A stretch of 64,000 nt of DNA from Bacteroidales bacterium (lineage in GTDB: Bacteria > Bacteroidota > Bacteroidia > Bacteroidales > UBA932), in contig JAGAKH010000002.1 in the NCBI GenBank assembly GCA_017625725.1, positions 1 to 64,000 of the forward strand. The letters are read 5' to 3'. Position 1 is the first letter of the stretch. The number at the start of each line of letters is the position of its first letter. Made by a program: the position numbers and the translations under genes. A model generated the notes under the pieces. The model was not told where the DNA came from. It did not search any database and was given only the letters and a program-made list of their open reading frames with translations. This document shows positions 1 to 46,424 of this stretch, one piece after another.

Positions 1-77
1 GAACCTGTGTCAGTATTAGACTTTCCGTACTTCTCGAAAAGCTCCTGTTTTTTCTCTGGTGCCAAATATTCAGCCAT
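1..77 (-). CDS. rpsO: 30S ribosomal protein S15, N-terminal fragment (cut by window edge)
   Basis: Only the first 25 codons lie in the window; the gene runs off the left edge. The reverse strand starts at ATG 77-75 and contains EKYGKSNTDTGS, a conserved N-terminal stretch of bacterial S15, a primary 16S rRNA-binding protein of the small subunit. A -7 promoter element lies about 70 bases upstream. The untranslated leader between them can form competing hairpins (see findings). S15 controls its own translation in several phyla; whether it does so here is inference. Confidence 0.9.
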   Translation of the reverse strand, partial: MAEYLAPEKKQELFEKYGKSNTDTG

Positions 78-115
78 CTTTTGAAAAAATTAGAGGTTAA
101 TAATTAATCGTATGC

Positions 116-156
116 ATCATCACGATGATTTCGTGGATTTTGCGGCCGCAAAGATA
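116..156 (-). promoter_or_regulatory. rpsO promoter and structured 5' leader
   Basis: On the minus strand TATCTTTG (156-149) matches the Bacteroidota -7 consensus TAnnTTTG and runs directly into a GCGGCCGC palindrome. Downstream, ATCATC/GATGAT (116-129) and CACGA/TCGTG (121-135) are two overlapping inverted repeats that cannot form together. This is a possible site for S15 feedback control. Confidence 0.6.
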
Positions 157-225
157 GTTATAAATTCCGATATTACAAAGCTATCCTATAGAAAATCTTA
201 TTATTCCCGGTTTTTTAAAATAAGT

Positions 226-257
226 GTTGTAATTTAAAATCAAATACAATAAATTTG
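226..257 (+). promoter_or_regulatory. Promoter of the leuA unit
   Basis: TTG at 227-229 is followed 20 bases later by TAAATTTG at 250-257, a full match to the Bacteroidota -33/-7 promoter pattern. The predicted transcript start is near 262-265, only a few bases before the leader-peptide ATG at 271. Confidence 0.75.
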
Positions 258-270
258 TCGACCTAAAGAA

Positions 271-330
271 ATGAAAATGTATCAGAATTCACTACAGTCC
301 CTATTGCTATGGAATCGGCCTGAAGCCTGA
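271..330 (+). CDS. leu operon leader peptide (attenuator peptide)
   Basis: A 19-codon ORF reads MKMYQNSLQSLLLWNRPEA and ends at TGA 328-330, about 110 bases before leuA. Four codons are leucine (292, 301, 304, 307) and three of these are CTA, which looks little used in the neighbouring genes. Its position just after a good promoter and just before a terminator hairpin is that of a leader peptide whose translation senses charged tRNA-Leu. The stop codon overlaps the 5' arm of the antiterminator. No family match is expected for such peptides; the call rests on composition and context. Confidence 0.75.
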   Translation: MKMYQNSLQSLLLWNRPEA

Positions 331-413
331 CTCCTGCGGGATTGAATTGATGATGTAGCAGATGCTTGTAGAATCAATATATGTCAGCCTCCGGAGTCAA
401 CCGGAGGCTTTTT
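328..413 (+). promoter_or_regulatory. leu attenuator: antiterminator and intrinsic terminator
   Basis: Terminator: GCCTCCGG (387-394), loop AGTCAA, CCGGAGGC (401-408), then TTTTT. Antiterminator: TGACTCC (328-334) pairs with GGAGTCA (393-399), extended by GGG (338-340) with TCC (390-392) across a 3-base bulge. The two structures share 390-394, so only one can form. A ribosome stalled on the Leu codons leaves 328-340 free, so the operon is read. A ribosome at the stop codon covers it, so transcription ends. Confidence 0.75.
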
Positions 414-438
414 GTTCTGACAGGTAAACGGAAACTAT

Positions 439-1935
439 ATGGAACAGAAACTTTACATTTTTGACACGACACTCAGGGATGGAGAGCAGGTCCCCGGCTG
501 TCAGTTGAACACAATTGAGAAGATCGAACTGGCGAAGATGCTCGAGAACATGAAGGTGGACATCATTGAGTGCGGATTCCCTGTATCAAGTCCTGGAGAT
601 TTCAAGTCAATAGTCGAGATTTCCAAGATTGTGACCGAATCAAGGCTCTGTGCCTTGGCCCGTGCGGTGGAAAAAGATATCGAGGTGGCCGCAGATGCCC
701 TCCATTTTGCACGTCTGAAGAGGATTCACACCGGAATAGGAACTTCAGACTATCATATAATATATAAGTTCAATTCCAACAGAGAGGAAATCCTTCAGCG
801 TGCCGTTGCAGCTGTGAAGTATGCACGCAGATTTGTCGATGATGTGGAATTCTATGCGGAGGATGCAGGAAGGACAGAAAATGAATACCTTGCGAGAGTC
901 GTTGAGGCTGTAATCAAGGCAGGGGCAACCGTAGTGAACATCCCCGACACTACGGGCTACTGTCTTCCGCACGAATATGGTGCGAAGATAAAATACCTTG
1001 TCGACAATGTACCCAATATTGACAAGGCTATCATTTCCACCCATTGCCACAATGATCTTGGAATGGCGACAGCCAATACGATTTCCGGTATATTGAACGG
1101 AGCCAGACAGGTGGAGGTTACAATGAACGGAGTAGGCGAACGTGCTGGAAATACCGCTATGGAGGAGGTTGTAATGGCGGTTAAGAGCCGTAAGGATATT
1201 CCTGTATATACTGATATAGATACTACCTGTTTCCATAAGGCCTCACATTCTGTTTCCACCCTCATGAGGATGCCTGTCCAGCCCAACAAGGCCATAGTCG
1301 GACGTAATGCCTTTGCACATTCATCCGGAATCCATCAGGATGGAGTGCTGAAGAACAGGGAAAGCTATGAAATCATAAAACCGTCCGATGTGGGAGTTGA
1401 TGATTCGACAATAGAGCTGACTGCAAGAAGCGGAAGGACTGCCCTGAATCATCATTTCCAGCGTCTGGGTATCAATCTTTCCAAGGAACTTCTGGATCAG
1501 GCTTATGTAAAGTTCCTCAAGCTTGCAGACTGCAAGACATATATCAATGATTCGGACCTCTATATGATTGCTGGTGTGACACAGGATAACCATGCTCAGA
1601 AGATACGTCTGAAGTATCTGCAGGTGGTGTGCGGCAAAAATGCGATACCGATGGCCACTGTCAAGCTTATGATCGACGGTGAAGAGTGTACGGCGACATC
1701 AAGTGGAAACGGTCCTGTGGATGCAGCCTTCAAGGCGGTGAAAAGCCTCGTGCACAGAAAGATAAATCTTGAAGAATACCTCGTTCAGGCTATTACCAAG
1801 GGAACAGACGATGTCGGAAAAGTACATATACAGATTGAAAACAAGGGTAATATCTACTATGGATTCTCTGCTAACACAGATATTGTCACCGCTTCGGTCG
1901 AGGCCTATGTAAATGCGATATCAAAGATATTGTGA
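439..1935 (+). CDS. leuA: 2-isopropylmalate synthase
   Basis: Condenses 2-ketoisovalerate with acetyl-CoA, the committed step of leucine synthesis in the cytoplasm. At 498 residues it has the usual LeuA length. The N-terminal TIM-barrel HMGL domain shows TTLRDGEQ near residue 10 and the metal-binding HCHNDLG near residue 205. The last 130 or so residues form the LeuA dimerisation/leucine feedback domain, which separates it from homocitrate synthases lacking that domain. It is the first gene after the leu attenuator. leuB, leuC and leuD are not in the window. Citramalate synthase is a less likely alternative. Confidence 0.95.
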
Positions 1936-2579
1936 TGGAAAAAGCTTATTCAGATCCGCTGTTGGGTGACATCATTTTCCGTAAACGGAAAGGGATCCGT
2001 CGCCTGAGTATCCGTGTCCATCCGGTCAAGGGTGTCAGTGTGTCGGTTCCTTATATGGTGCCTTTTGCCGCAGCCCATGCGTTCTTTATACTGAAGCGTG
2101 ATTGGGTGGTCAGGACAGTTGCAAGGCAGAAGGAGGCCTGCAGGGATATTCAGCAGCTGGATTCCGTTCAGGTCGAGGAAATGAGACGTCAGGCGAAAGA
2201 CTTTCTTCCGCTTCGCCTCAGTGAGTTGGCAGGAAGGTATGGATTCTCATATAATAAGGTCACCATAAAGCATAATACCACCAATTGGGGCAGCTGTTCG
2301 GCAAGAAACAATATCAATCTTAATCTAAATCTCATGCGTCTGCCTTCTCTGATGAGGGATTATGTCCTGCTTCATGAACTGTGTCATCTGCGTCATCACG
2401 ACCATGGACAGGCTTTTCATCTGCTTCTGGAGCATCTGTGTACAGACCATGTGCTCAGGCTTATGCAGGAGGGTGATGAAAATGCATCGGAAGTAGCAAG
2501 ACTTGCAGCCTTGTCCAGGGCCAGGTATCCGTTTGACCACATCTTTTCAAAACAGATAAAGCAGTATCGGCTCGTATGA
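1935..2579 (+). CDS. YgjP-like (DUF45) zinc metallopeptidase
   Basis: A protein of about 214 residues carrying the DUF45/YgjP signature: WGSCSARNNI near residue 118, then LHELCHLRHHDHG near residue 148, a HExxH zinc site with a third histidine. Members are predicted intracellular metallopeptidases related to SprT; substrates are mostly unknown. The ATG at 1935 overlaps the leuA stop (TGATG), so it is translationally coupled to leuA and shares its attenuator; GTG at 1932 is an alternative start. It has no known part in leucine synthesis, and its place between leuA and ilvD may be incidental. Confidence 0.85.
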   Translation: MEKAYSDPLLGDIIFRKRKGIRRLSIRVHPVKGVSVSVPYMVPFAAAHAFFILKRDWVVRTVARQKEACRDIQQLDSVQVEEMRRQAKDFLPLRLSELAGRYGFSYNKVTIKHNTTNWGSCSARNNINLNLNLMRLPSLMRDYVLLHELCHLRHHDHGQAFHLLLEHLCTDHVLRLMQEGDENASEVARLAALSRARYPFDHIFSKQIKQYRLV

Positions 2580-2686
2580 TAGCAAAATGAAAGTAGGGAA
2601 AATGGTCTTTGAGTCAGCTTAAATGGACTTTTTTCAAATTTTGCCAAAAAAGTTGTTATAAAGTGATACCATATTGTTTTTTTTCT

Positions 2687-2694
2687 TACATTTG
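2687..2694 (+). promoter_or_regulatory. -7 element of the ilv operon promoter
   Basis: TACATTTG matches TAnnTTTG exactly. No good TTG lies at the standard spacing (GTG at 2663-2665 is the nearest). The predicted start near 2700 is about 35 bases before the ilv leader peptide. Confidence 0.6.
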
Positions 2695-2735
2695 TCTCCG
2701 GCAACATTTAGCCGCACCGGAAAAAGGTATATATA

Positions 2736-2828
2736 ATGAATTTCAGACTTGTCAATAACGTTGCTTCTTCCAAGCTAGGAATCGCTATTCTTGGCGTGGT
2801 CGTCGTTTCCATTATTATTGACATGTAG
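2736..2828 (+). CDS. ilv operon leader peptide (attenuator peptide)
   Basis: A 30-codon ORF ends at TAG 2826-2828, 109 bases before ilvD. Fourteen codons are branched-chain: six Val, five Ile and three Leu. They include an uninterrupted Val-Val-Val-Val run (2796-2807) and Ile-Ile-Ile (2811-2819) just before the stop. A terminator and a competing hairpin follow. Composition and position are those of a leader peptide sensing charged Val, Ile and Leu tRNAs, as in the enteric ilvGMEDA and ilvB leaders, though it shares no sequence with them that I recognise. Confidence 0.78.
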   Translation: MNFRLVNNVASSKLGIAILGVVVVSIIIDM

Positions 2829-2835
2829 TTCTGAA

Positions 2836-2902
2836 ATCCATTGGTGAAATAATCAAGCTGTCTGCAACACCTTTGGAATAGGATGCAGACGGTTATTTTT
2901 TT
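2836..2902 (+). promoter_or_regulatory. ilv attenuator: antiterminator and intrinsic terminator
   Basis: Terminator: AAGCTGTCTGCA (2855-2866) pairs with TGCAGACGGTT (2884-2894), followed by seven T (2896-2902). The alternative structure pairs ATCC (2836-2839) with GGAT (2881-2884), ATT (2840-2842) with AAT (2877-2879), and GGTG (2843-2846) with CACC (2868-2871). It encloses the terminator 5' arm, so the two exclude each other. The antiterminator 5' arm begins 8 bases after the leader stop codon, where a terminating ribosome would mask it. Confidence 0.7.
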
Positions 2903-2937
2903 GTAAGGAACTGAAAATTTGCGAAACAGTAACGGAT

Positions 2938-4764
2938 ATGAAAAAGCTTAGAAGCAGCAGATGTATCGAGGGACCGAAAATGGCTGGAGCCAGGGCCTTG
3001 TGGAGGGCTGATGGAATGAAGGAGGAACAGTTCGGCAAGCCGGTCATAGCTATAGTGAATTCGTTTACTCAGTTTGTTCCCGGTCATGTCCATCTTCATG
3101 AAATCGGTCAGGAAATCAAGGCCAGGATAGAGTCTCTGGGGTGTTTTGCTGCTGAATTCAATACAATAGCCGTGGATGACGGCATAGCCATGGGCCATGA
3201 GGGAATGCTTTACTCCCTGCCATCACGTGACGTAATAGCAGATAGTGTGGAGTATATGTGCAATGCACATTGTGTCGATGCTATGATCTGCATTTCTAAC
3301 TGCGATAAGGTAACTCCAGGTATGCTGATGGCGGCGATGCGTCTGAATATTCCTGCCGTTTTTGTATCCGGAGGCCCTATGGAGGCAGGAAATGTGGCCG
3401 GTAAGGACTACGACCTTGTCGACGTGATGGTAAGAGGTGCAGATCCGAGTGCGTCGAAGGATGAGCTTGATGCTCTCGAGCGTGGAGGATGTCCGGGTTG
3501 CGGATGTTGCTCGGGCATGTTTACTGCCAATTCGATGAACTGTCTCAGTGAGGCTCTCGGGCTTGCTCCAGCCGGCAACGGAACCATTCTTGCCACTCAT
3601 AAGGAAAGACATGCCTTGTTCATGAGGGCGGCGGATATGATTGTCCGCAATGCAAATGCATATTATATGGAAGACGATGATACGGTTCTTCCTCGTTCAA
3701 TAGCTACGAGACAGGCTTTCTTCAATGCAATGTCTCTGGATATCGCCATGGGAGGATCTACAAATACAGTCCTTCATCTTCTTGCGATTGCCCGGGAGGC
3801 TGGTGTGGACTTCACCATGAAGGATATAGATTCACTTTCCAGAAAGATCCCCGTGCTGTGCAAGGTTTCCCCGAACAGCCGTTACCATATTCAGGATGTA
3901 GCCCGTGCAGGTGGTGTCATGGGAATCCTGGCTGAGCTTCATCGTGGCGGCTTTCTTGATGTCAGCACTTTCAGGGTGGATTATCCTGATCTTGCCCAGG
4001 CTCTCGCATCGGAAGATGTCGTGAAGGACAGTAGTTCATCTGCAGTAAGGAAGTATCTTGCTGCTCCTGGAGGACATTTCAATCAGGTCCTCGGCTCGAA
4101 TTATCTGTATAATGAATCGTTTGATACGGACCGGGAGAACGGATGCATACGTGATGTCGACCATGCATATTTCCGTGACGGAGGTCTGGCTGTTCTGTAT
4201 GGCAATCTTGCAGAAGACGGCTGTATAGTCAAGACAGCCGGAGTGGATGAGAAGATATGGCATTTTGTCGGACCGGCAGTCGTGTTCGAGTCTCAGGAGG
4301 AGGCTGTGGAGGGTATCCTTTCCGGTAAAGTAGTGGCAGGCAACGTCGTAGTGATAAGATATGAAGGACCTAAGGGCGGTCCGGGAATGCAGGAGATGCT
4401 TTATCCGACTTCCTATCTCAAAAGCATGAAGCTTGATAAGGATTGTGCGTTGCTTACCGACGGCCGCTTTTCTGGAGGAACGTCCGGACTGTCTTTAGGA
4501 CATGTGTCTCCTGAGGCTGCTTCGGGAGGTGAAATAGCTCTTGTCAAGGATGGTGACATGATAATGATCGACATCCCTTCCAGAACCATATCACTTGATG
4601 TCCCTGAGGATGAACTCAAGAGCAGACGAAATGAGATGGAGGCAAGAGGCAGGATGGCTTGGAAGCCTCAGTCGAGAGATCGAAAGATAAGCAGGGCATT
4701 GAAGGCATACGCTTCGATGGTTTCATCTGCAGATAAAGGTGCAGTAAGATTGTTGGAGGACTGA
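2938..4764 (+). CDS. ilvD: Dihydroxy-acid dehydratase
   Basis: Dehydrates 2,3-dihydroxy-isovalerate and -methylvalerate to the keto acids that give valine and isoleucine. The 608 residues match the family length. The iron-sulfur cysteines are visible in [12 protein letters not shown] and [19 protein letters not shown], together with the SGGPMEAG segment and a C-terminal [10 protein letters not shown] active-site loop. It is the first gene behind the ilv attenuator and lies two bases before ilvB, so the four ilv genes form one operon. Edd (phosphogluconate dehydratase) is the related alternative, excluded by context. Confidence 0.97.
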
Positions 4765-4766
4765 AA

Positions 4767-6470
4767 ATGGGCAATTTGATCAAAGGTGGCAGGGCGATAA
4801 TCGAAGCTCTTGCGGCAGAAGGTGTTGATACGATATTCGGTTATCCAGGCGGTGGCATCATGCCGTTCTATGATGAACTGTACAGATACTCAGGTTCGCT
4901 CAACCATATTCTTGTCAGACATGAACAGGCTGCTGTCCATGCTGCGGAAGGTTATGCGAGGAGTTCCGGAAAAGTGGGCGTATGTGTGGCGACAGCCGGT
5001 CCGGGAGCTACCAATCTTGTTACAGGAATTGCAGATGCAATGATGGATTCGACCCCGGTCGTATGCATTACGGCTCAGGTTCAGAAAGAGGGCCTCGGAG
5101 CTGCTTCATTTCAGGAAGCGGACATCATAAGTATAACCTTGCCGATAACAAAGTGGAATTATGAGGTCACAACTGCACAGGAGATAGGGCCTGTTTTGGC
5201 CAAGGCATTCAGGATCGCCCGTTCCGGTCGTCCCGGTCCTGTGCTTGTCAGTATTACCAAAAATGCTCAAACCGAGGAAGTGGACTTCGCTTATGAGGTT
5301 GAAAAGAATCCAGCACCTTCGGTGACTGATGAACTGGCGGAGAAATTGGATAAGATGGCCGAGATGATCAGGACTTCACAAAGGCCTTTGCTCATTGCAG
5401 GACATGGCGTCACTATCTCCGGAGCGGAAAGGGCCCTTGGCGAAGTGGCTTTGCAGGCAGGCATGCCGGTAGCGACAACTATGCTCGGCCTTTCCTGTAT
5501 TCCGTCCGATCATCCCAATTATATCGGTTGTGTCGGTATGCATGGGTCTCATGCTCCTAACAGGATGACCCAGGCTGCAGACCTGATCATTGCGGTGGGA
5601 ATGAGATTCAGTGACAGGGTCACAGGCAGACCTTCCGATTATGCTCCCAAGGCAAGGATAATCCATGTGGACATCGATCCCGTGGAAATAGGTAAGGTGA
5701 TAAGGGTGGATCTTCCTATAGCCGGAGATGCAAGGACAGTTCTCGAAGGTCTGCTTGAAAGGGATATAAAGTCTGTATGGAGAGGATCCTGGTGGGATAT
5801 GGCACGCGATGTGGCGGTCAGGGAGGCCAAGCTTCTGACCAATGTCCAGCTGGCATCCAACAGGGGACTGACCATGGCTACAGTTGTCCAGAGAATCTCC
5901 ATGCTTGTAGGTAATGACAAGATAGTTGTTACTGATGTAGGACAGAACCAGATGTTTGCTGCAAGATTTTCCTATTTTGCCAACAAAAGAAGCTGGATCT
6001 GTTCCGGGGGACTTGGCACCATGGGCTATGGCCTTCCGGCTGCGATAGGTGCGAAGGTCGCCAATCCTGATAAGACGGTAATTGCATTTATGGGCGATGG
6101 CGGATTTCAGATGAATATTCAGGAACTGGGAACTCTGCTTCAGACAGGTCTTGCCGTAAAGATTGTGCTGATGAATAATTCATGGCTTGGAATGGTACGT
6201 CAGTGGCAGGAACTCTTCTATGATAAGAGATATTCTTTTACTCACCTTGAAAATCCTGATTTTCAAATAGTTGCCAAGGGCTATGGCATACCTTCGGCCA
6301 GGATTGACTCTGTTGAGCATCTGGATGAGGCTATTATGCAGATGATGAACTCAGAAGGATCTTTCCTTCTGGAGGCATGTACTGTGTCGGAGGAAAACAT
6401 ATTTCCTATGATACCGGCAGGAGCTTCAATAGATAAGATATTCATTGATAATGATTTTACAGAACTATGA
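4767..6470 (+). CDS. ilvB: Acetolactate synthase, large (catalytic) subunit
   Basis: ThDP- and FAD-dependent enzyme that joins pyruvate with pyruvate or 2-ketobutyrate, the first common step to valine, leucine and isoleucine. The 567 residues show the three-domain order: N-terminal pyrimidine-binding domain with the catalytic glutamate in VRHEQAAVHAAEG (near residue 49), the central FAD/ThDP fold, and the C-terminal ThDP motif GDGGFQMNIQEL near residue 437. It overlaps the regulatory subunit gene by four bases (ATGA). This coupling to an ACT subunit marks it as the anabolic form rather than AlsS. Confidence 0.97.
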   Translation: MGNLIKGGRAIIEALAAEGVDTIFGYPGGGIMPFYDELYRYSGSLNHILVRHEQAAVHAAEGYARSSGKVGVCVATAGPGATNLVTGIADAMMDSTPVVCITAQVQKEGLGAASFQEADIISITLPITKWNYEVTTAQEIGPVLAKAFRIARSGRPGPVLVSITKNAQTEEVDFAYEVEKNPAPSVTDELAEKLDKMAEMIRTSQRPLLIAGHGVTISGAERALGEVALQAGMPVATTMLGLSCIPSDHPNYIGCVGMHGSHAPNRMTQAADLIIAVGMRFSDRVTGRPSDYAPKARIIHVDIDPVEIGKVIRVDLPIAGDARTVLEGLLERDIKSVWRGSWWDMARDVAVREAKLLTNVQLASNRGLTMATVVQRISMLVGNDKIVVTDVGQNQMFAARFSYFANKRSWICSGGLGTMGYGLPAAIGAKVANPDKTVIAFMGDGGFQMNIQELGTLLQTGLAVKIVLMNNSWLGMVRQWQELFYDKRYSFTHLENPDFQIVAKGYGIPSARIDSVEHLDEAIMQMMNSEGSFLLEACTVSEENIFPMIPAGASIDKIFIDNDFTEL

Positions 6471-6712
6471 TAAGAAAGTTTATTGTTGTTGCGGAAGGTG
6501 AGGGAAGACTTGATATTGTAAGCAGGGTTTCAATGCTTTTCCTGCAGAGACATGTGGATGTGGAAAGTCTGAAGTACCTGCCTTTGGACGGCTGCAGAAG
6601 CCGTTATGAAGTCTGTGCTCTTTCACATGAGAACACGATCCGACAGATTCTCGGTCAGATGGAACATATTGAAGGGCTCGACAAGGTGATAGTTGAAAAT
6701 GAACATAAATAA
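6467..6712 (+). CDS. ilvN: Acetolactate synthase, small (regulatory) subunit
   Basis: An 81-residue ACT-domain protein (beta-alpha-beta pattern starting KFIVVAEGEGRLDIVSRV). It is the size of the minimal small subunits such as E. coli IlvN and IlvM, and lacks the extra C-terminal domain of the 160-residue IlvH type. It binds valine and stabilises and inhibits IlvB. It starts inside the last codons of ilvB and is 18 bases before ilvC. Function follows from family and context; sequence alone is weakly conserved in such short ACT proteins. Confidence 0.9.
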   Translation: MIRKFIVVAEGEGRLDIVSRVSMLFLQRHVDVESLKYLPLDGCRSRYEVCALSHENTIRQILGQMEHIEGLDKVIVENEHK

Positions 6713-6730
6713 CATATAAAACGAAACATT

Positions 6731-7777
6731 ATGGCTATTATGAATTTTGGTGGAGTTGAGGAAAATGTTGTAACCCGCTCCGAGTTCAGTCTTGAAAAGG
6801 CAAAGGAAGTGTTGAAAAATGAGGTGATCGCTGTCATCGGATATGGAGTTCAGGGACCGGGTCAGTCATTGAATCTCAGAGACAATGGTTTCAATGTGAT
6901 TGTGGGTCAGAGGAAGGATTCAAAGAGCTGGGACAAGGCTGTCGAGGACGGTTGGGTACCGGGTGAGACTCTTTTTGAAATCGAGGAAGCGTGCCAAAGG
7001 GGTACGATTATAGAATATCTGCTTTCGGACGCAGGTCAGATCTCTGTGTGGCCGACTGTAGAGAAACATCTTACAACAGGCAAGGCACTGTATTTCTCTC
7101 ATGGCTTCGGAATCACTTATAAGGAGCGTACCGGTATCGTGCCTCCGGCAGATGTGGACGTGATCCTTGTGGCTCCTAAGGGCTCCGGAACATCTCTCCG
7201 CAGACTCTTCCTTCAGGGCAGGGGAATCAATTCCTCATATGCCATCCATCAGGATGCAACAGGCAAGGCCTATGACAGGGTCATTGCTCTCGGTATTGGT
7301 GTCGGCTCCGGATATCTTTTCGAGACAACCTTCCAGAGAGAGGTTTACTCTGATCTTACCGGTGAGCGTGGAACACTCATGGGTGCAATCCAGGGTATCT
7401 TTGCTGCACAGTATCAGGTGTTGAGGGAGAACGGACACACTCCTTCAGAGGCATTCAATGAAACTGTAGAGGAACTCAGCCAGAGTCTTATGCCTCTTGT
7501 TTCCGAGAATGGAATGGACTGGATGTATGCCAACTGTTCAACCACTGCCCAGCGTGGAGCCCTCGACTGGTGGAAGAAGTTCCGTGATGCAACCCTTCCT
7601 GTCTTCAATGAACTTTATGAAAGTGTGAAGACCGGTAATGAGGCTCAGATTTCAATTGATTCGAACAGTCGTCCTGATTATCGTGAGAAGCTTAATGAGG
7701 AACTGAAGGAAATGCGTGAAAGCGAACTTTGGCGTACAGGAGAGACTGTGAGGAAACTCCGTCCGGAGAGAAGCTAG
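6731..7777 (+). CDS. ilvC: Ketol-acid reductoisomerase
   Basis: Isomerises and reduces acetolactate or acetohydroxybutyrate with Mg2+ and NAD(P)H. The Rossmann glycine motif reads IGYGVQGPGQ (near residue 37), with Pro-Gly in place of the His-Ala common in proteobacterial enzymes. SHGFGI (near residue 124) and the C-terminal acidic metal ligands follow. At 348 residues it is close to class I size. It is the last gene of ilvDBNC and its stop overlaps the convergent MATE gene by four bases; no terminator is visible between them. Confidence 0.96.
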   Translation: MAIMNFGGVEENVVTRSEFSLEKAKEVLKNEVIAVIGYGVQGPGQSLNLRDNGFNVIVGQRKDSKSWDKAVEDGWVPGETLFEIEEACQRGTIIEYLLSDAGQISVWPTVEKHLTTGKALYFSHGFGITYKERTGIVPPADVDVILVAPKGSGTSLRRLFLQGRGINSSYAIHQDATGKAYDRVIALGIGVGSGYLFETTFQREVYSDLTGERGTLMGAIQGIFAAQYQVLRENGHTPSEAFNETVEELSQSLMPLVSENGMDWMYANCSTTAQRGALDWWKKFRDATLPVFNELYESVKTGNEAQISIDSNSRPDYREKLNEELKEMRESELWRTGETVRKLRPERS

Positions 7778-45257: not shown

Positions 45258-46424
45258 TCATCTACTGATTTTGCTGATCAGCTCAGCTGCGGATGCAAGA
45301 GTTTTTTCATTGGTTTCGAAAATAGCATCGAGGTCGGGATCTGCTACAAAATCCGCACCAGCCATGCACTCTGCGACAATGTCAGTGATGTCGTAGAAGC
45401 CGATCCTTTCCTGCAGGAATGCATTTACTGCAGCTTCATTGGCTGCATTCATGACGCATGCCATGTTTCCTCCCTTGGCCAAGGCTGAGTACGCAAGTCC
45501 CAAGGCAGGGAAACGTTCTACGTCAGGTGCTGAAAATGACAGTTGTCCTAGCTCTGCAAAATTAAGCTTCCTGTTGTCAAGAGGCAGTCTGAATGGAAAA
45601 CTGAATGCAAACTGGATGGCTTCCCTCATGTCAGGATGTCCCATCTGGGCGATTACCGAGCCATCCGCATATTCAATCATGGAGTGGATTATTGATTCCG
45701 GATGAACCACGACTTCGATCTTGTCGCCAGGGGTGTTGAACAGCCACCTTGCCTCTATTATTTCCAATCCTTTGTTCATCATGGTTGCAGAGTCGATCGT
45801 AATCTTGCTACCCATGCTCCAGTTAGGATGATTCAGTGCTTGGGCTCTGGTAGCCTTTGCAATATCTTCCTTTTTCCAAGTTCGGAATGGTCCTCCAGAG
45901 GCAGTCAGGTGTATCTTCTCTATTTCCGCTCCGGCTGATCCCATAAGGCACTGAAAGATAGCCGAGTGTTCTGAATCGACCGGCAGGATTCTGGCACCGT
46001 GTCTCTCTGCAAGTTTCATTACGATGCTTCCTGCGGCAACAAGCGTTTCCTTGTTTGCCAATGCAATTGTCTTTCCTGCCTTGACGGCCGAAATTGTTGA
46101 TGAAAGCCCGCTGAATCCGACCATTGATGTCAGGACTATATCTATATTGTCTGATGCTGCCAGGTCGCACACCGATTGCATTCCGGCGAACACCTTTATA
46201 TAATGTGGCTTAAGGGCTTCAGAGACTTCCTGATATTTCTCCTCATTGCATATGACAACGGAATTGGCTTCGAATTCAATAGCCTGGCTTATCAGAAGCT
46301 CGCTGCTGTTATTTGCTGTAAGCAGTTCTACCTCAAATAGATCTCTGTGCTGTCTGATTACGTCCAGTGCTTGTCTTCCTATAGACCCGGTGGATCCGAG
46401 AATGGCTATATGTCTTTTCTCCAT
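45258..46424 (-). CDS. dxr: 1-deoxy-D-xylulose 5-phosphate reductoisomerase
   Basis: Second step of the MEP isoprenoid pathway, feeding undecaprenyl phosphate for the wall genes in this window. 388 residues: NADPH loop LGSTGSIGRQALDV at the N-terminus, metal-binding PVDSEHSAIFQCL near residue 150, and a C-terminal helical domain (MNAANEAAVNAFL). Normal length. Five bases after the membrane M23 gene. Confidence 0.97.
   Translation of the reverse strand: MEKRHIAILGSTGSIGRQALDVIRQHRDLFEVELLTANNSSELLISQAIEFEANSVVICNEEKYQEVSEALKPHYIKVFAGMQSVCDLAASDNIDIVLTSMVGFSGLSSTISAVKAGKTIALANKETLVAAGSIVMKLAERHGARILPVDSEHSAIFQCLMGSAGAEIEKIHLTASGGPFRTWKKEDIAKATRAQALNHPNWSMGSKITIDSATMMNKGLEIIEARWLFNTPGDKIEVVVHPESIIHSMIEYADGSVIAQMGHPDMREAIQFAFSFPFRLPLDNRKLNFAELGQLSFSAPDVERFPALGLAYSALAKGGNMACVMNAANEAAVNAFLQERIGFYDITDIVAECMAGADFVADPDLDAIFETNEKTLASAAELISKISR

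Follow-up and report, generated by a model that had tools for sequence, protein, structure and literature searches.

The window, that is, the whole 64,000-nt stretch of Bacteroidales DNA analyzed here, opens with a minus-strand gene whose 5' end (MAEYLAPEKKQELFEKYGKSNTDTG) resembles an ORF found at some distance before leuA in the related locus L032; we take this gene to be rpsO. On the opposite strand lie leuA and, after an ORF at 1935-2579, a valine/isoleucine operon. The intervening ORF has no NCBIfam match and is, judged by its motif, presumably a YgjP-type metallohydrolase. An 81-aa ORF (6467-6712), also with no NCBIfam match, stands between ilvB and ilvC at the place of ilvN, the gene for the acetolactate synthase small subunit. 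Across window positions 439-7777, leuA has no leuC, leuD or leuB behind it, and in our search leuC was absent from the contigs of this genome (G000, about 80% complete). In genus relatives with contigs reaching far enough, the gene order is leuA-leuC-leuD-leuB. No phage record carrying the region was matched. Both leuA and ilvD are preceded by a putative leader region, and the features are as follows.

227..257, plus strand: predicted promoter with a -33 element TTG (227-229) and a -7 element TAAATTTG (250-257), from sequence and motif scan
271..330, plus strand: leader peptide ORF MKMYQNSLQSLLLWNRPEA of 19 codons, with a second in-frame ATG at 277, from sequence and relatives' leader ORFs
292..309, plus strand: putative regulatory Leu codons CTA 292, CTA 301, TTG 304 and CTA 307, from sequence and codon bias
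328-330, plus strand: leader stop codon TGA, read from the sequence
328..340, plus strand: predicted antiterminator 5' arm, starting within the leader stop, from duplex prediction and covariation
388..399, plus strand: predicted antiterminator 3' arm, made up of the terminator 5' strand and loop, from duplex prediction and covariation
386..413, plus strand: predicted intrinsic terminator, stem 386-394/401-409 and T run 409-413, from fold and relatives' terminators
439..1935, plus strand: leuA, 2-isopropylmalate synthase (NCBIfam NF002086 and TIGR00973, above cut-off), the putative controlled gene
2687..2694, plus strand: predicted -7 promoter element TACATTTG before the ilvD leader, from sequence
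2736..2828, plus strand: second leader ORF MNFRLVNNVASSKLGIAILGVVVVSIIIDM with VVVV and III runs, from sequence and comparable family leaders
2856..2902, plus strand: predicted intrinsic terminator before ilvD, stem 2856-2866/2884-2894 and T run 2896-2902, from fold
2938..7777, plus strand: ilvD-ilvB-(81-aa ORF)-ilvC, the valine/isoleucine operon; ilvD, ilvB and ilvC named by NCBIfam

The leader, terminator and antiterminator reported before leuA in a preliminary description of this DNA are confirmed. The promoter, the 19-codon peptide with four Leu codons (three CTA) and the terminator are all present; the four Leu codons fall within eight codons, and the predicted energy of the terminator stem is -18.1 kcal/mol. 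The antiterminator core pairs TGACTCC (328-334) with GGAGTCA (393-399), with a predicted extension to about 340/388. As described earlier, the two predicted foldings have bases in common and the leader stop lies on the 5' arm; by the present prediction the common bases are 388-399, and the TGA at 328-330 opens the arm. The promoter element is separated from the ATG at 271 by 13 nt. Since transcription is expected to start 5-7 nt past a -7 element, a 5' UTR of about 7 nt is predicted, in keeping with the earlier remark that the transcript starts only a few bases before the peptide. In 53 of 71 loci the pattern TAnnTT[TC]G lies at most 40 nt ahead of the leader ATG, as against 3.1% of shuffles; a short predicted 5' UTR is the rule among these leaders.

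In 3000 dinucleotide shuffles of window positions 171-438, a terminator of -15 kcal/mol or stronger appeared five times, once with a short ORF before it and never with a Leu-rich one, and a chance ORF was rejected on the ground that 0 of 3000 shuffles gave both a terminator and a Leu-rich leader. The count of terminator patterns taken alone is unremarkable (one in window positions 1-1000 versus 0.6 expected), and the window antiterminator alone is marginal when set against shuffles of the upstream region (z = -2.0, p = 0.045); the case for it lies in the comparison between loci.

The promoter and terminator enclose about 150 nt, which would be enough on its own for a small RNA, and the best Rfam score at the window leader is a sub-threshold likeness to OmrA-B (25.6 bits, gathering cut-off 40), with no leader or T-box family found there. 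One alternative to an attenuator is thus a terminator that closes a small RNA or stops transcription arriving from upstream, with the leader ORF incidental. We consider this very improbable, and codon usage is the first argument against it. CTA accounts for only 47 of the 1540 Leu codons (3.1%) in the 44 window ORFs of at least 200 aa, and for three of four in the leader; by arithmetic from the window usage, at least three CTA among four Leu codons would arise by chance about once in 9000 cases. The enrichment of this rare codon extends to the 16 same-genus leaders (44 of 77 Leu codons), while in sister genus leaders CTA makes up 18 of 65 and CTG is commoner. A passage on the modelling of enteric attenuators names CUA as the codon best suited to leu control and reports that changing three CUA to CUG lowered the sensitivity of the Salmonella leu leader (PMC1183508). 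The enteric leu leader shows this preference for rare CTA too, and the two seem to have converged on one and the same use of a tRNA isoacceptor.

Within the family, leuA was matched at E <= 1e-180 in 149 of 398 genomes, the window's own included. The best 29 matches besides the window were fetched; the 18 from the same genus are 88-91% identical to the window leuA, and the other 11 (ten from the sister genus g35 and one from another genus) 79-81%. A Leu-rich leader precedes leuA in 28 of these 29 loci and in all 18 of the genus (the leaders of L127 and L128 were read by eye); no leader was found before leuA in L139. Terminators were called in 17 of the 18 genus loci, and L123 has a hairpin without a T run. 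Among 20 more distant family loci, eight have a credible leader and terminator (L181-L184, L186, L189, L190, and L193), the leader call at L185 was judged not credible, and no credible leader was seen in the remaining 11. The latter comprise four loci with a divergent ilvD upstream (L191, L192, L194, and L195), four with ilvC upstream (L196, L197, L199, and L200), and L187, L188, and L198. The arrangement of ilvD divergent from a leuA with no leader seen before it is also found at L139.

Two samples extended the comparison to Bacteroidales: 61 genomes from the same genus and from the order, 29 of them with a leuA match (own included), and a species-level collection represented by the best 80 of a longer list of matches. 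The 106 upstream regions compared are the window, 25 regions from the first sample, and these best 80; the partial or paralogous loci L027-L030 were left out of all upstream counts. A leader was defined as an ATG-initiated ORF with at least five L/I/V in eight codons and a terminator within 80 nt. Such L/I/V-rich leaders with a terminator precede leuA in 54 of the 106 regions (the best 80 of the longer list included) versus 2 of 318 shuffles. The window leader itself scores 4, just under the cut of 5, and the caller is conservative: the evident leader of L082 scored 2 in one scan and less than 4 in the other. A common leader type across Bacteroidales leuA loci is ILLSGIIILL-like. A frequent terminator is AAGCCTTTCTCACTTCC...GTGAGAAAGGCTT, and its matching antiterminator arm GGAAGTGAG lies in the last leader codons or directly past the stop. 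Among the 56 loci with a leader score of at least 4, the antiterminator beats shuffled arms in 40 (p <= 0.05), and its 5' arm overlaps the leader-stop zone in 53, a count that speaks of geometry only.

No leader candidate was found before leuA in 47 of the 106 regions, 23 of which have ilvC directly upstream and 24 do not; L019 and L085, where no leader was found, are on the same contig. Several operons with ilvC upstream of leuA have a leader before ilvD instead. Genus g1 possesses two leuA lineages, which share about 89% and about 66% identity with the window leuA, and in the second type ilvC is just upstream in 10 of 12 loci of the first sample. In two records labelled Lentisphaerae/Lentisphaeria (L074 and L080), leuA resembles that of Bacteroidales (67%) and has an L/I-rich leader with a terminator; this leuA reflects either transfer or a binning error.

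The preliminary description had expected a working attenuator to show conserved Leu codons and paired covariation of the competing arms in relatives. The former is seen in the family loci above, and the latter is borne out by a swap test, in which the pairing energy of each leader-end region was calculated with every terminator 5' half and own partners were compared with foreign ones. Own pairings average -17.43 kcal/mol and foreign pairings -12.59 (81 sequences), with p = 0.0002, the smallest value possible in this permutation; the permutation tests ignore the tree, so their p values are not exact probabilities. Excluded from the 81 were L059 (repetitive, no pairing, p = 0.955), L032, with the same upstream region as L122, and L011, dropped with a leader score of 4. 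A control region upstream of the leader gave no effect (-8.39 versus -8.18 kcal/mol, p = 0.20, 71 sequences). By subset, the test gave p = 0.0002 for the 52 other loci and p = 0.0004 for the ten sister genus loci; for the 19 loci of the genus the result of this looser test is not significant (p = 0.076), the own partner beating the median swap in only nine. Pairs were also counted on ungapped blocks, because the MAFFT alignment A1 misplaces the terminator 3' side, and here own pairings within the genus are stronger (-13.6 versus -12.3, p = 0.006; L123, where the terminator was anchored at a wrong position, is kept in this test).

Most arms of the genus read AAACTC/GAGTTT, as against TGACTCC/GGAGTCA in the window; the letters differ, and the pairing is preserved. 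Two positions most often filled by A-T (10 of 19 and 8 of 19 loci) are G-C and T-A in the window. In the 81-sequence test, 11 terminator halves pair with the window arm more strongly than the window's own half does, and 13 foreign arms bind the window terminator half more strongly than its own arm. Covariation between the stop-codon arm and the terminator is a second argument against a terminator that merely ends a small RNA. The protector (1:2) hairpin, which doubles as a pause site in the trp attenuator, has a median z of -0.65 in 52 loci and -0.80 in 19 loci, and of -1.96 in the window; these predictions do not support it as a general feature, in which case ribosome masking at the stop codon may suffice.

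The second leader region of the window precedes ilvD; no good -33 partner for TACATTTG was found in the motif scan. Of the 21 ilvD loci of the family that were fetched, 18 have Val/Ile-type leaders, for instance MILNGNISIIISLLVVVVVVISIIVP, and L145, L148, and L149 have none. In the swap test on 19 ilvD sequences, own pairings average -14.87 versus -13.02 (p = 0.001); the window ilvD antiterminator alone is not significant (z = -1.1). In genomes G442 (L148) and G167 (L149), the ilvD match starts 26 nt past the leuB match and belongs to one operon with leuA (L164 and L163, respectively), forming a fused leuACDB-ilvD operon. The leuA leaders of these fused operons, MHNIIVISILSLLRNFIS (L164) and MRNIINISILSLLRNFGS (L163), contain four and five Ile codons besides Leu. 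At least three Ile in the densest 14 residues are found in both fused leaders of the genus and in none of the 15 unfused leaders compared. The two leu-ilvD fusions may be one event.

The L/I/V totals are 155/26/6 in window-type leuA leaders without cimA (29 loci), 140/136/17 in leuA leaders with cimA (33 loci), 33/98/118 in ilvD leaders (21 loci), and 37/24/21 in ilvD leaders of fused ilv-leu operons (8 loci). Left out of this comparison were L046 (doubtful leader), L099 (duplicated locus), L123 (no T run), L127 (context cut), the near-duplicates L133, L135, L138, and L184, and the leaderless L139. At least two Ile in the densest 14 residues occur in 33 of 33 cimA-bearing loci versus 7 of 29 cimA-free loci of the window leuA type. 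The idea that Ile codons track cimA in the operon nevertheless failed in part: it does not hold in six of eight further cimA-free loci, two from the same genus with the other leuA type (L012 and L014) and six from other groups: L014, L025, L033, L074, L080, and L097 keep several Ile, and L011 and L012 do not. Phylogeny thus confounds the link between Ile and cimA. No credible leader was seen at ilvD in L040, L061, L068, L093, and L102, and L033, L044, and L046 have two leaders each.

Other amino-acid operons were checked in seven genomes of the genus, G000 included. The hisG gene was found in six of them, each time with a His-rich ORF and a terminator upstream (L220-L225), for instance MTLRLSYRLHHHHIYGI; it was absent from the roughly 80% complete G000 in this search. 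All seven have a Phe/Tyr-rich leader with a terminator before pheA (L246-L252, of which L248 is in the window's genome), MGIYRFSSFGLGYFYYLTR. Bifunctional-length aspartokinase genes have a leader with a terminator in none of the seven genomes, and among the ORFs listed with a terminator at six shorter aspartokinase genes, none has more than three K/T/M in eight codons. No trpE was detected by TIGR00564 in the seven genomes. The leader codons therefore match the pathway, with Leu at leuA, Val/Ile at ilvD, His at hisG, Phe/Tyr at pheA, and none at the bifunctional aspartokinase genes. Such agreement between ORF residues and the downstream pathway across the leu, ilv, his, and phe operons is the third argument against an incidental ORF.

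Two further alternatives to ribosome-mediated termination are still less probable. Control of the terminator by a T-box or riboswitch sensing tRNA or a metabolite would find room in positions 341-385, which lie between the arms and are predicted to be able to fold, and in other phyla T-boxes control leucine genes. This candidate was rejected: Rfam contains no such match in window positions 1-6000 (E <= 1) or, at the gathering cut-off, in 19 related loci, where only 5S rRNA and a group II intron were found, both elsewhere, and the codon content makes sense only if the ORF is translated. It is equally hard to credit that the leader acts mainly via translation (coupling, re-initiation, or mRNA stability), as a passage proposing leader genes near structural genes as re-initiation aids might suggest, since its stop is 108 nt from leuA, far above the 11-14 bp peak for Bacteroidetes in the same passage (PMC4833913), and a terminator and a co-varying antiterminator sit between the two.

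We therefore favor the view that the stretch 227-413 is a ribosome-mediated attenuator through which leucine controls leuA, with a rough probability of 0.88. This reading is based on what sequence and computation show: the parts themselves, the fact that they recur, the joint change of the competing arms, and the biased codon use. The leuA product is an enzyme of the pathway of the sensed amino acid (2-isopropylmalate synthase, by NCBIfam). The attenuator reading of the preliminary description is very probably right; the leu site is not a single case but belongs to a putative set that also takes in ilv, his, and phe/tyr.

The transcription start, leader translation, stalling, and effect on leuA mRNA that we infer would combine as follows. 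RNA polymerase would start just before the leader ATG, with a ribosome behind it. When charged tRNA-Leu is ample, the ribosome would clear the four Leu codons, halt at the stop codon 328-330, and mask the antiterminator 5' arm; positions 388-399 would then be free for the terminator, and transcription would end near 413. When Leu-tRNA is short, above all the CUA-reading isoacceptor, the ribosome would stall at 292-309, the arm 328-340 would pair with 388-399, and polymerase would continue into leuA. A Val/Ile version of the same logic likely governs ilvD-ilvB-ilvC.

The enteric leu attenuator is laid out with a terminator/antiterminator switch, as is predicted for the window leader region. Enteric leuL of Escherichia and Salmonella is alike also in the Leu-rich leader before leuA and the CUA-biased control codons described in a passage of PMC1183508. 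Unlike it, the window has a Bacteroidota-type promoter, a very short predicted 5' UTR, an unsupported 1:2 hairpin, and a leuA without leuCDB after it, and with no Rfam match no sequence-level relation is seen. Attenuators of the trp/his type in Proteobacteria and Actinobacteria follow the same logic with pathway-matched codons, in other phyla; those of Actinobacteria are treated in a survey (PMC1262725).

Within Bacteroidota, descriptions of such attenuators are few, as had been stated earlier. The Bacteroid-trp RNA motif (RF01692), presumably an attenuator, has no match in the loci scanned here. In a passage of PMC2864571 this motif is assigned to Bacteroidetes and marked as a likely RNA and likely cis-regulatory. 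For Flavobacterium psychrophilum, of the same phylum and another class, a passage sees "strong clues" to attenuation by leader peptides upstream of amino-acid operons and names no leu/ilv leader and no antiterminator (PMC9723704). Short ORFs "reminiscent of leader peptides" are mentioned for long 5' UTRs of B. thetaiotaomicron (a passage of PMC7366714), and the word "leader" is absent from the main text of a survey of his genes in the superphylum (PMC8305728). No leu/ilv attenuator for Bacteroidales was found in the literature searched; the 2010 survey by Lopatovskaya and colleagues may include some. The mechanism is textbook, and the wider pathway-matched set is the new part.

Classic attenuation needs a ribosome close behind RNA polymerase, and this phylum has unusual promoters and little use of the Shine-Dalgarno sequence. 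If many Bacteroidales do have co-varying attenuators matched to the pathway, coupling there would be good enough to serve as a sensor. Such attenuators would also provide a rule, open to test, for how the synthesis of branched-chain amino acids, histidine, and aromatic amino acids is regulated in an order frequent in gut communities, with the fused operons as natural experiments on the rewriting of the leader code. We see about an even chance for a broader proposal: that Bacteroidales, whose ribosomes hardly use Shine-Dalgarno sequences, possess an attenuator regulon (leu, ilv, his, and phe/tyr), in which the leader code evolves with operon fusion or gain of citramalate synthase, and in which a leader at the very 5' end allows instant ribosome loading and tight transcription-translation coupling.

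Finally, a short ORF at window positions 45781-45831 (MVAESIVILLPMLQLG) is followed by a terminator-like hairpin.
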